A DNA stretch of 64,000 nt. Origin: Trichocoleus desertorum NBK24 (GTDB lineage: Bacteria > Cyanobacteriota > Cyanobacteriia > FACHB-46). The stretch covers positions 2,829,628 to 2,893,627 of the forward strand of contig NZ_CP116619.1 in assembly GCF_030409055.1 (NCBI RefSeq), in the 5' to 3' direction. How positions within the stretch are numbered: the stretch's first letter is position 1; each line of letters starts with the position of its first letter. This document shows positions 27,640-31,275 of this stretch, piece by piece. The position numbers were made by a program, and so were the translations under genes. The notes under the pieces are model-generated. The model searched no databases. It saw only the letters and a program-made list of their open reading frames with translations, and had not been told where the DNA came from.

Positions 27640-29661
27640 TCATATTTTAATAGCCTCACTAATGAGTCGTTGTTCCTCAGTCGTGAGTTCATAAAGGTCG
27701 TAGACAAATTGGTCGATTTGGCGTTCCAAGGTGTACATATGCTGCTGTAAATTGTGGCGATGTTCGGCAGCTTCGGCTACTAGTAACTGTTGCTGTAGGG
27801 ATAACAAATGCTGCACTAGTGCGACTAGAGGTTGCTTTGGTAGAGGACGTAGTGAGTCGTGAGCAAGACAAATGGGCAGCGATCGCAACTGTTGCGGCCC
27901 AATTCGCAAATAGCCCCCTTTGAGGCAGTCTCCCCCGTATAAGTTGCGGTAGTAAAAGCTGATCAATTTACTGTTTAGCAGCGCCAAAAGGTAATGCAAA
28001 TTCAACGAGGTGAGAATAATCACAGTGGATTTTCCCGCTAAGAAAGCTCCTGTAGCATCCACCATACATTCCAAAATTTGGGTCATGCCAGCCACAATAA
28101 TTTTCGGTTGGCGAGCTTGCTGGTGTCGCTTATGCGGCAGATGAGAGTGCTGGGTCGCTGGGATGACGGGATAGCGATAGGCATGGCCCAAATAGCGTAG
28201 GCACTTGTGTCCCCACAGGTCGCAGTAGCGGTCAATGGTGCCGCTATTAATCAGCTTCAGGTCGGTCGTCTCTGGGCAAGCTTCATCTGCAATCAACGAC
28301 TGCATGGCGTAGGCTTCTCCTACGGTTGCGGCTCCCAAAACTTCTGCCACTGCGGACAAGGGCGGAAATTGGGACTGCAAGCGATCGCACAACTCCGCCT
28401 GCTGCAAGCTAGCCCCCAATCGCCACGGTTTCTCTGCTTGCCAGAAATAGCGCTGGTAATCTAGCCATTGACAAGTTGCTACAGCGATCGCGCCGTTAGC
28501 GGCTACTTCCATGCGTTCGTACTGCACCTGTAAGGTTACTTTTGGCGGTTGTTTGCGAGCCGTGTAAACAATGGGATAAACCGCAACCGGAAAAATCGGC
28601 ACCTTGGAGTAATCGCGGATCGTCAAAAGTTGATTCTGGACCGTTAAAAGCTGGCGAGCTTGAGCGGCATAACTGGCTGACCCTAGCTTATTCGGCACAA
28701 TCAAGCTGGTTAACCCGTAAGGTTTGCACAGGGCGATCGCTTGTTCAATAAACACGCAAAACAAGTCCCAATTGCCTGAAGCGGCTTGATAGTGTTGCGT
28801 ACAGTAGTGCCGCCAATCAGGAAGGTGCTCAGTCATCCACTCCGAATCCACATAAGGCGGATTGCCAATCACCACATCAAACCCACCTGCCTGCATCACC
28901 TCTGGAAACTCTGCTTGCCAGTTAAAAGCCTGGTTAGAGCTGCCCAGAGACGAAGGGGAGCGATCGCCCAATTCCTCACCAATAACGGCGTTGCCACATT
29001 TAAGGTTGTTCTCCAAATCAAACGGCTCGCTTGGAGTTTTGCCCCCCCTACCCCCCTTTCTGGTATGCCCGCTAGGGCTATATGGTGGGGGGAGCCAATC
29101 CATAGAATATTCAGAAGAATTATCTCCTATAGCCTTTTGAACTCTTATTCCCCCCGAAGTCGGGGGGCTAGGGGGGCCAAGTTTGTGACAAGCGCAGGGA
29201 ATAAGGGGAATAGAAGCCATATCTAGCAAGCGGGACTGAGCCTGTGCGACTGCTTGGGCATCAATATCCACTCCATAAATGTGCTCCCGCAGAATCCGCC
29301 ACCGTTCCACGATCGCCAATTCCCAAGTTCCATCACTCGCCAGTTGTAGCGGCAATTCTGTGATTAATGTGTTTCCGCTTTCGTAATCATTGATGTAGCG
29401 ATCGCGATACCAAGCCAACAAGTAAGCATAGGCTCGGATCAAGAAAATGCCTTCGCCACAAGCAGGGTCAAGGATGCGGAGGTTGCCCAATAATTGTTGA
29501 GGCGTTTTGTTTGCTAACAACCGCCCGACTGTGTTCTCCACCATGTAGTCCACAACTGCCGTAGGTGTGTAACAAACCCCAATGGGCAGCTGTAGTGTCC
29601 TTGCGTCATCTGTGGCAGCAGGATCAGAAGGAACGGGTGGGGGAGGTTTGCGGTTGAGCAT
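27640..29661 (-). CDS. N6-adenine DNA methyltransferase (Eco57I/TaqI-like) with repeat insertion
   Basis: A 673-residue type IIG-like or orphan adenine methyltransferase. Motif I is DPACGEGIFL, motif IV is NPPYVDSEW. The C-terminal half has a TaqI-like target-recognition region (KIIVAGMT...LLALLNSKLISFYYR) and a final coiled coil. No nuclease domain or partner restriction gene is adjacent. Between motif I and motif IV lies a 46-codon stretch encoded by a GC-rich interspersed repeat (29041-29178), an in-frame insertion. The likely start is ATG 29661, which still overlaps the upstream START-like gene by 38 bases; a longer frame to 29724 would overlap more. Confidence 0.85.
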   Translation of the reverse strand: MLNRKPPPPVPSDPAATDDARTLQLPIGVCYTPTAVVDYMVENTVGRLLANKTPQQLLGNLRILDPACGEGIFLIRAYAYLLAWYRDRYINDYESGNTLITELPLQLASDGTWELAIVERWRILREHIYGVDIDAQAVAQAQSRLLDMASIPLIPCACHKLGPPSPPTSGGIRVQKAIGDNSSEYSMDWLPPPYSPSGHTRKGGRGGKTPSEPFDLENNLKCGNAVIGEELGDRSPSSLGSSNQAFNWQAEFPEVMQAGGFDVVIGNPPYVDSEWMTEHLPDWRHYCTQHYQAASGNWDLFCVFIEQAIALCKPYGLTSLIVPNKLGSASYAAQARQLLTVQNQLLTIRDYSKVPIFPVAVYPIVYTARKQPPKVTLQVQYERMEVAANGAIAVATCQWLDYQRYFWQAEKPWRLGASLQQAELCDRLQSQFPPLSAVAEVLGAATVGEAYAMQSLIADEACPETTDLKLINSGTIDRYCDLWGHKCLRYLGHAYRYPVIPATQHSHLPHKRHQQARQPKIIVAGMTQILECMVDATGAFLAGKSTVIILTSLNLHYLLALLNSKLISFYYRNLYGGDCLKGGYLRIGPQQLRSLPICLAHDSLRPLPKQPLVALVQHLLSLQQQLLVAEAAEHRHNLQQHMYTLERQIDQFVYDLYELTTEEQRLISEAIKI
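29041..29178 (-). repeat. 138-bp repeat element inserted in coding sequence
   Basis: The ends are near-inverted repeats: GCCCCCCCTACCCCCC at the left and GGGGGGCTAGGGGGGCC at the right. An internal hairpin is CCCCCCGAAGTCGGGGGG at 29150-29167. The length is 138 bases (46 codons), so the reading frame is preserved. It translates as a Pro/Gly/Ser-rich insert starting PPSPPTSGG and ending RKGGRGGKT. The composition and terminal symmetry fit cyanobacterial interspersed palindromic elements. Confidence 0.75.
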
Positions 29662-30373
29662 GGTGGGCTGTTGCCTGCAAGGTTCGCCGACCGATTTCTT
29701 GACTAATCGCAGTGAGAGATTCATTCAAGCCACTGCGAAACAGGTTGTAGAACAGCCCTTTTGGGATGCCTGCAGTGGGTTCTGCCGTAATATCTTGCGT
29801 CAGCAATACTTGAGTCACAGGAGCGCCCGGATAAGCTGCTACGGGATTAATTTGCCAATATCCTTGCAGCGTTTTCACATCGCCTTCCAGTAGCCGAAAA
29901 TCAATCCGTTTTTTCGCAATTTCAATGTTCTCGGTGCGGAAACGCGATCGCCTGCTGACAAGCAATACCTGGCGCACATCCACTTGCTCCACGACTTTGC
30001 GGTTGCCCTGCGCCTCAATCACACGGCTCGAAACCACGTTGGGGAGAAATGTAGACAGATTGGCATAGTCGGTCAACACAGACCAAACCACATCTGGGGA
30101 AGCTTTGACCAAAACTTTAGCCACATAGCGACCTTGATCGCCTGTGACCACCACCTTGCCACTGCGTAATGCTACCCGCTCCGCTACCGGAAGGCGATCC
30201 AAGGGGCCGTTAAACAGTTCGGCTCTAGCTACCGAGGGAGAAGTGACAGTCAACAATACAGCGGTTGTGAGTCCTCCCAGCCTTAGCAGAGTTTTAGTTG
30301 GTGTGACTACTCCAGAGCGAGCGATCGCAGAAACGCAATTTGCCAAGATACCAGGCGTAGAAATATCAGACAT
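29624..30373 (-). CDS. SRPBCC/START-like protein with signal peptide
   Basis: A 249-residue protein. The start at ATG 30373 is preferred over an upstream GTG (30451). Residues ~28-52 are a signal peptide (LGGLTTAVLLTVTSPSVARA). From residue ~75 a polyketide-cyclase/START-like beta-helix-grip domain follows (VLVKASPDVVWSVLTDYANL, then FLPNVVSSRVIE, with ITAEPTAGIPKGLFYNL late). Such proteins bind hydrophobic ligands. The 3' end overlaps the DNA methyltransferase start by 38 bases, giving possible coupling. Ligand unknown. Confidence 0.84.
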   Translation of the reverse strand: MSDISTPGILANCVSAIARSGVVTPTKTLLRLGGLTTAVLLTVTSPSVARAELFNGPLDRLPVAERVALRSGKVVVTGDQGRYVAKVLVKASPDVVWSVLTDYANLSTFLPNVVSSRVIEAQGNRKVVEQVDVRQVLLVSRRSRFRTENIEIAKKRIDFRLLEGDVKTLQGYWQINPVAAYPGAPVTQVLLTQDITAEPTAGIPKGLFYNLFRSGLNESLTAISQEIGRRTLQATAHHAQPQTSPTRSF

Positions 30374-30462: not shown

Positions 30463-31275
30463 TTAGCTTGCCGAATCTAACGCTAAACTCAGCGCTAACT
30501 GGAGTTCTGGACGGGGTTTGGCATCAGCGGGTAAAGGTTCTGGCTCCGCTTGTACGCCTGGACAATAGCGAGCATAGGTGCAGCGATCGCAATGCCCGCC
30601 AGTCGTAGGTTCCCAAGCGGCATCGGTTCGCAATCGTAGCGCCAAATCACTAATGGCTGACTCAACTCGCTGTTTATGGTCTGGTGTGACCTCAAAGCTG
30701 ATTTTCTCGCCTGTACGGAGATAGATCAAGCTCAATCGCCGTAGTGTTTGCGGGTAGGTTTGCTCTAAGGCCAAGTAATACAGCCCAATTTGTAGATTAA
30801 TTTCTGCTGGGTCTAGTAGTTTAGTGTCTTTGTTGGATTTATAGTCGATCAGCTCCAAGCCATCGGATAAATAATCGAGGCGATCGTAACGCCCCGCCAC
30901 GGTAAATTCTAGATTTTCCACCTGAAGCGAACCTTGAATTTTGCCTTCGACTGCCAAGGGTCGAGCGATCGCGCTTTGGCCCACAATAAAGCGCTCGTGG
31001 TACCGCTGCAACATCATCTGCCCTGCTGCTACCTGGTTAGGACTGAGTCCTTGAGTGTGCTGGCTCCAGCAATATTCCACCCAATCGAGTCCTGGAATTG
31101 GTTCTTGATAGTGCCAATCTCGGTAAATCTGGGCTAAAGCTTCGTGCAACGCCGTACCCAGAGCCGCAGACCCAAAAAAGGCAGCGGTTTTAATTCCACG
31201 TTCGTAACGGAAATAGTAGGACTGGGCACAGCGATGGTAGGTTTGCAGCTTGGTGGCAGAAAGGTGGTAAGCCAT
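30463..31275 (-). CDS. PD-(D/E)XK Fe-S nuclease (RecB/Cas4-like)
   Basis: A 270-residue single-domain nuclease. The active site is visible as E110, D131 (AGRYDRLDY), D144-Y-K146 (LIDYKSNK) and Q162 (LQIGLYYLAL). Four cysteines C16, C229, C232 and C238 have the C...Cx2Cx5C pattern that holds the [4Fe-4S] cluster in AddB and Cas4. It is therefore probably a 5'-3' or end-processing ssDNA exonuclease. There is no CRISPR array or cas gene nearby. A second paralogue with the same cysteine spacing is at 42908-43870. Confidence 0.9.
   Translation of the reverse strand: MAYHLSATKLQTYHRCAQSYYFRYERGIKTAAFFGSAALGTALHEALAQIYRDWHYQEPIPGLDWVEYCWSQHTQGLSPNQVAAGQMMLQRYHERFIVGQSAIARPLAVEGKIQGSLQVENLEFTVAGRYDRLDYLSDGLELIDYKSNKDTKLLDPAEINLQIGLYYLALEQTYPQTLRRLSLIYLRTGEKISFEVTPDHKQRVESAISDLALRLRTDAAWEPTTGGHCDRCTYARYCPGVQAEPEPLPADAKPRPELQLALSLALDSAS

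Follow-up and report, generated by a model that had tools for sequence, protein, structure and literature searches.

A REPIN-like repeat carried in frame within a cyanobacterial DNA methyltransferase gene

How does a palindromic repeat come to lie within the coding sequence of an enzyme, and what becomes of the enzyme and of the repeat? A methyltransferase gene of Trichocoleus desertorum NBK24 raises this question. The gene lies in the window, the whole 64,000-nucleotide stretch of contig NZ_CP116619.1 that was analysed here, and carries an in-frame insert of 138 nt. We consider it very likely that an old copy of a REPIN-like repeat landed in a loop of the methyltransferase before the species of the genus split, was tolerated there, and is translated as a spacer. 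In the proposed course of events, a small mobile repeat of ~70 nt, made of two inverted GC-rich hairpins, would have inserted into a loop that varies naturally, at a time before the three species sampled from the genus had split, and a second repeat in one hairpin loop would have added a net 24 nt. The parts of the locus are as follows, with G001 and G002 denoting the two congeners.

27640..29724, minus strand: methyltransferase ORF of Eco57I/TaqI_C type, 694 aa, open through the insert (domains; dN/dS outside the insert 0.12–0.14)
29041..29178, minus strand: composite in-frame insert, 138 nt, residues 183–228 (genome search; congener and outgroup alignments)
29150..29178, minus strand: left hairpin unit, head GGCCCCCCTAG plus CCCCCC-GACTTC-GGGGGG (kept in G001 together with the spacer; family alignment A1)
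29136..29149, minus strand: family-like spacer AATAAGAGTTCAAA, following the left hairpin (similar spacers in family copies)
29094..29135, minus strand: 42-nt (14-codon) middle (no second match in its own genome; G002 counterpart diverged; absent in G001)
29041..29093, minus strand: right hairpin unit, in inverse orientation to the left unit, with its loop enlarged by the nested repeat (family comparison)
29057..29084, plus strand: small nested repeat TTTCTGGTATGCCCGCTAGGGCTATATG within the loop of the right hairpin, adding 24 nt net (other copies; 24-nt orthologue differences in four other genes)
29180..29215, minus strand: extra 36 nt (12 codons) immediately upstream of the element (present in the window species alone; missing from both congeners)

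The preliminary description placed an in-frame insert of 46 codons between SAM motif I and the NPPY motif of the methyltransferase, and the coordinates, length and placement are as it claimed, the insert lying between DPACG (residue 86) and NPPY (residue 288). The near-inverted GC-rich ends that it noted are also present, with hairpins inside. Folded as RNA, with a few flanking bases (29036–29182), the insert reaches −68 kcal/mol (z −3.45), and none of 200 shuffles does as well; as DNA the z score is −2.55, and 1 of 200 shuffles is as good. Allowing up to two mismatches, GGGGGGNTAGGGGGG matches the window three times against 0.25 expected, a count reached by none of 100 shuffles; two of the matches overlap, leaving two places, both inside the insert. 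What did not hold up is the idea of one 138-bp interspersed repeat. A search of the insert against its own genome (G000; 5.458 Mb in one contig) at E up to 0.001 returned eight matches, which are the insert itself and seven partial matches of ~29–42 nt confined to query positions 12–53 or 96–138. The suggested genome-wide search thus found family copies elsewhere and no other full 138-bp copy, and the plasmid records searched gave no match.

The insert is instead a composite of a REPIN-like pair of inverted GC-rich hairpins, a nested small repeat and a 42-nt non-repeated middle. On the coding strand, the order is left hairpin unit, spacer, 42-nt stretch and right hairpin unit with the nested repeat. 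The middle was also considered as a third repeat, a proposal left unsupported by the own-genome search, which found no second copy of it at E up to 0.001. The same result, together with the presence of the left hairpin only in G001, would suit two separate single-hairpin insertions flanking a native 42-nt linker. We think this improbable, because a family-like spacer follows the left hairpin and the right hairpin has the inverted orientation of the family, both of which point to a single two-hairpin element. The window DNA also contains GCGATCGC octamers, which we take to be HIP1.

The enzyme that hosts the insert appears whole. Pfam finds an Eco57I domain (E 6.8e-33, residues 147–378) and a TaqI_C domain (E 4.4e-10) in the 694-aa protein, both intact, and these domains and the DPACG and NPPY motifs identify it as an adenine-specific DNA methyltransferase. 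Outside the insert, dN/dS is 0.143 between the window and G002, 0.142 between the window and G001, and 0.116 between G002 and G001, and this part of the enzyme is under purifying selection. Inside the insert, the values for the same pairs are 1.17, 0.80 and 1.03, which is near-neutral, on few codons (49, 14 and 14). In an AlphaFold2 model built with 14 sequences (mean pLDDT 75, with 493 of 694 residues at 70 or above), residues 176–233 fall below a pLDDT of 50 and have no secondary structure; this stretch lies between a helix (156–171) and a strand (241–243). The insert is therefore modelled as a disordered loop. Residues 1–50 and 252–263 are also of low confidence, so disorder is not peculiar to the insert. 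The solved relatives 8cxz and 7lni have ~26 residues between matched blocks at the corresponding stretch. The central proposal of the preliminary description, that a repeat was turned into coding sequence with frame and domains unbroken, agrees with the intact domains, the low dN/dS outside the insert and the modelled disorder within it. One ORF away from the methyltransferase lies an ORF on the minus strand (30463–31275) that we take to resemble a PD-(D/E)XK-type nuclease.

The element occupies the identical methyltransferase codon in all three searched genomes of the genus and is in frame in each. The versions differ: the window and G002 (L039) both have the full element with the nested repeat, and G001 (L040/L057) has the left hairpin and spacer only. 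Codon 4 of the aligned G001 frame is a stop, which means that the G001 protein must start later, and for this reason the methyltransferase probably starts at Met22 (near 29661) rather than at the first ATG of the ORF. Homologues were sought in 77 genomes and matched in 19, 16 of which lie outside the genus. The outgroup alignment used 13 of these 16, the other three loci having been set aside because no GNPPY frame was recognized in them by the script. All 13 aligned homologues, from other families, are without the insert; in 12 its place is taken by no more than a short variable linker, and 1 is an incomplete row without sequence at this point. The comparison with orthologues lacking the insert, which had been proposed as a check, could thus be made. 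Neither of the two outcomes named beforehand as counting against the observation was found, namely an insert in all distant relatives or an absence of other copies in the genome.

Shared by the three genomes of the genus and missing from the aligned outgroups, with a near-neutral, disordered sequence inside a constrained enzyme, the insertion is thus old, inherited and apparently tolerated. It most likely predates the split of the three sampled species and, judging from the substitution ratios, has most likely not ended selection on the enzyme. An adaptive reading would have the inserts domesticated, with the hairpins or the Pro/Gly-rich loops kept for regulation of translation or for altered enzyme behaviour. 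The inserts do persist across species, with those of the methyltransferase and of an oxoprolinase found in all three genomes, and the RNA hairpin is strong. However, the dN/dS of the insert is near 1, albeit on few codons, orthologous inserts vary in length and content, and the G001 methyltransferase retains only half of the insert. We regard domestication as very unlikely. In the reading as a tolerated spacer, three points are inferred: production of an active protein, spread of the element through transposition and not some other form of copying, and a selection that puts up with the insert without making use of it.

The hairpins belong to a dispersed family. The pattern CCCCCYTANCCCCC has 24 matches in the window's own genome, against 2 for a control read backwards, and a covariance model of 10 copies gives at least 37 matches on both strands, in at least 21 places, a lower bound that comes from 150 scored candidates out of 3266 at first look. 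The window copy is not among the model's matches at E 0.01. The basic element is ~70 nt long and reads GCCCCCCTAR-CCCCCC-loop-GGGGGG-spacer-CCCCC-loop-GGGGG-TTTAGGGGGC or similar. Its head is CCCCCCTAG or CCCCCCTAA in most copies, with T or C as the last base in a few. A stricter pattern is found in 44 of the 388 class genomes and in 26 of 160 genera, with per-genome counts that include some overlapping matches and no control match among the rows listed; the repeat-rich genome G132 has 97 matches on this count, overlapping ones included. The looser pattern has 45 matches in G002 and 4 in G001. Inverted pairs of short GC-rich palindromes with a short spacer, as in REPs and REPINs, characterize 26 full copies and are seen in alignment A1 of 10 copies. 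In 23 of the 26, the length is 67–79 nt, and the other three, with extra inserts, measure 84–95 nt. Several full copies (L015, L021 and L164, for example) continue as AGTGCARGGAG on the right and are preceded by CCGAACCAG-like sequence at their left, and these flanks hint at a longer parent element. At L128 (G326:C1:1264913-1265679), hairpin copies are crowded within ~770 bp, and open frames of 131–225 aa pass through the hairpins; one of these, of 202 aa, has no Pfam match.

What moved the element? A classical MITE, mobilized by a DDE transposase, would account for the size of ~70 nt and for the terminal inverted repeats, since the full copies do have inverted ends and a size fitting the ~70–300 nt of MITEs. 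The target duplications that the preliminary description had suggested looking for were, however, not found in 26 copies: the observed mean is 0.5 against 0.68 (sd 0.21) in shuffled pairs, and 407 of 500 shuffles lie at or above the observed value. Nor is a target duplication evident at the empty site of L183. The result for the 26 copies speaks against a classical MITE, which we consider unlikely. A RAYT was also examined as the mobilizer. Y1_Tnp was searched in the window's own genome and in 14 genomes (not every listed match had a locus), and L034 was left out of the inspection as equal to L033 over the 500 bases compared. None of the 31 Y1 transposase loci is bracketed by the hairpin within up to ~1.5 kb of flank, as judged by exact patterns that would miss decayed hairpins, and 4 of the 31 have a related hairpin on one side only. 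Mobilization by a RAYT is thus left unsupported. The family also lacks the conserved GTAG/CGTC end tag of REPs and REPINs, with no GTAG among 24 own-genome heads. Because both the tag and the RAYT tests fail, we call the element REPIN-like and not a REPIN.

The preliminary description further suggested that this copy might reveal a family that is still mobile. Because all three genomes of the genus hold it, the methyltransferase copy is not evidence that the family moves today. Comparison of the sister genomes points to movement after the species split only for other copies and, it appears, for the nested repeat.

The nested repeat has a narrower distribution. The pattern TCTGGNATGCCCNNTAGGGCTA occurs in 4 of 388 genomes, which are the three of the genus (3, 7 and 1 copies) and G236 (2 copies); a fourth copy in the window's own genome (L061) differs in the last base of the pattern. 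In the 12 copies of the genus, the repeat sits between a C-rich and a G-rich arm in a single polarity, with decayed arms at L146. For the glycosyltransferase, TPR and PKS genes, the nested repeat appears as a gap of exactly 24 nt between orthologues; in the oxoprolinase gene, the element lengths of G000 and G001 are likewise 24 nt apart (36 against 60). As 24 is a multiple of three, gain or loss of the nested repeat leaves the frame intact. One contig of G002 (G002:C40:4680-39464; L166–L170) has five in-frame elements in its NRPS/PKS genes, ~8–9 kb from one another. All five carry the nested repeat, one of them with a base changed.

It is possible, if somewhat on the doubtful side, that the nested repeat is immobile and that hairpins with long and short loops are two versions of one repeat, swapped by gene conversion. 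Its constant position in the loop and single polarity within the genus would be expected from such swapping, as would the 24-nt difference at four loci and the series of five elements on the G002 contig; the two copies in G236, by contrast, lie in a different C-rich context without the hairpin of the genus. Were the nested repeat mobile, a two-tier, frame-neutral system could be envisaged, in which a hairpin that is stop-free in four frames seeds enzyme loops and a 24-nt cassette moves in and out, so that loops of core enzymes and of NRPS/PKS proteins keep diversifying unbroken. We offer this proposal tentatively, as one that is less likely than not.

The methyltransferase is not the only gene with an element in frame. 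We examined 79 entries in G000, G001 and G002, comprising 72 pattern matches (44 of the 45 of G002 among them) and 7 model places, at which a point at or near the locus middle was tested first and then the element's own coordinates. A single open frame of at least 300 aa, measured between stops and in many cases truncated where the locus ends, spans 26 of the 79 entries (33%), which correspond to 25 elements because the two hairpins of the window are counted twice. Shorter open frames (L014, L117, L158, L179 and a second frame of 148 aa at L019) were left out of this count. With the G002 methyltransferase added, there are 26 in-frame sites in 17 gene loci of the genus: the methyltransferase, 5-oxoprolinase, an Orn/Lys/Arg decarboxylase, a glycosyltransferase, an AMP-binding ligase, an RluA-type pseudouridine synthase, a TPR protein, a LarC-type nickel insertion protein, an unassigned protein (L183), a PKS, an MmeI-like protein (L104), an epimerase-like protein (L106), four NRPS sites and CobN. 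These names are based on Pfam matches, and those of RluA and LarC are presumptive. In 13 of the 17 loci, Pfam matches in the same frame extend across the element or lie on both sides of it; for RluA, L106 and L183, an orthologue alignment covers both sides, and for L104 the frame is supported on one side only. L104 (G002:C1:316703) is a second restriction-modification-like gene, with MmeI target recognition and methyltransferase domains and the element in an open frame.

Some of these sites have relatives that are empty or altered. The site of L183 is empty in G002, by 78 nt, with other sequence there in G001, and that of L106 is empty in G000 and G001, by 75 nt that include non-element sequence. 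Compared with their relatives, L018, L181 and L175 show less clean replacements, and in the G001 relative of L168 the hairpin has decayed and the nested repeat is missing. The sample outside the genus consisted of 20 loci, one per genome and 3 of them from this genus, with 35 matches. In 3 of the 17 loci from other genera, a frame of >900 aa runs through the element (nSTAND1 in L135 and PKS in L143 and L144, the last two being from one genus and possibly the same gene). Shorter frames pass through the element in L128, L131 and L136, and the two tested, in L128 and L131, have no Pfam match.

The share of copies in genes is below that expected at random: when positions are drawn at random from the loci fetched for the genus, 54% (662 of 1223) fall within an open frame of 300 aa or more, compared with the 33% observed. 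Simulated inserts keep such a frame in 7% of cases at 31 nt (85 of 1210) and 40% at 30 nt (484 of 1203), and in 6% at 70 nt (72 of 1225) and 29% at 69 nt (361 of 1236). Given the low retention at 31 and 70 nt, frame-breaking copies would rarely show in long open frames. The simplest mechanism would be copying into many places, with selection removing the copies that break the frame and in-frame copies surviving in flexible loops. Both repeats are stop-free in 4 of 6 frames, and the 17 loci between them use all four hairpin frames. A copy that lies in a flexible loop and preserves the codon phase would thus be read as a Pro/Gly/Ser-rich spacer, out of reach of purifying selection.

In the sister species, the same insertions occur naturally in empty, half, full and nested form, which makes direct testing possible of how selfish repeats become protein and of which loops tolerate them. 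Loop changes in NRPS/PKS proteins could matter for natural product enzymes.

Several known systems resemble the one considered here. Elhai et al. reportedly described, in 2008, small dispersed repeats of Nostoc that include repeats inserted in repeats; the present elements are likewise tiny, dispersed and cyanobacterial, a likeness at the level of that description. Ogata et al. are said to have found Rickettsia palindromic elements (RPEs), small palindromes in frame in many unrelated genes. The present family similarly consists of small palindromic repeats in frame in many unrelated, apparently functional genes, with recurrent in-frame insertion at 26 sites in 17 loci. RPEs are reviewed, with intragenic MITEs, in PMC10969869; that review reports them as ~150 bp long with a conserved peptide, whereas the element here is ~70 nt, is used in four reading frames and so encodes no one conserved peptide, and has another sequence, another phylum and a second repeat nested inside.

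PMC3733652 treats intragenic REPs of the GTAG/CGTC super-families, both singlets and dimers, within the ORFs of several species; it reports 20 to 82 amino acids encoded by dimers and groups, and lists cyanobacterial GTAG families as well. The present palindromes are again singlets and dimers, some within ORFs. Unlike the REPs as presented there, they have a head that is mostly CTAG/CTAA, and no RAYT association was found. REPINs, introduced by Bertels and Rainey in 2011 (PMC3116915), share with them two inverted hairpins, a short spacer and dispersal; the differences are that no linked RAYT gene was found here and that a good part of the copies lie in coding frames. Within the literature searched, which left most subscription papers outside, this hairpin family in coding frames or a nested 24-nt repeat of this sort is not described, a weak negative. 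RPEs and intragenic REPs are the closest precedents, and the kind of element is a known one, its cyanobacterial two-tier variant being apparently new. The Rickettsia-type phenomenon of coding palindromes would thereby extend to cyanobacteria.
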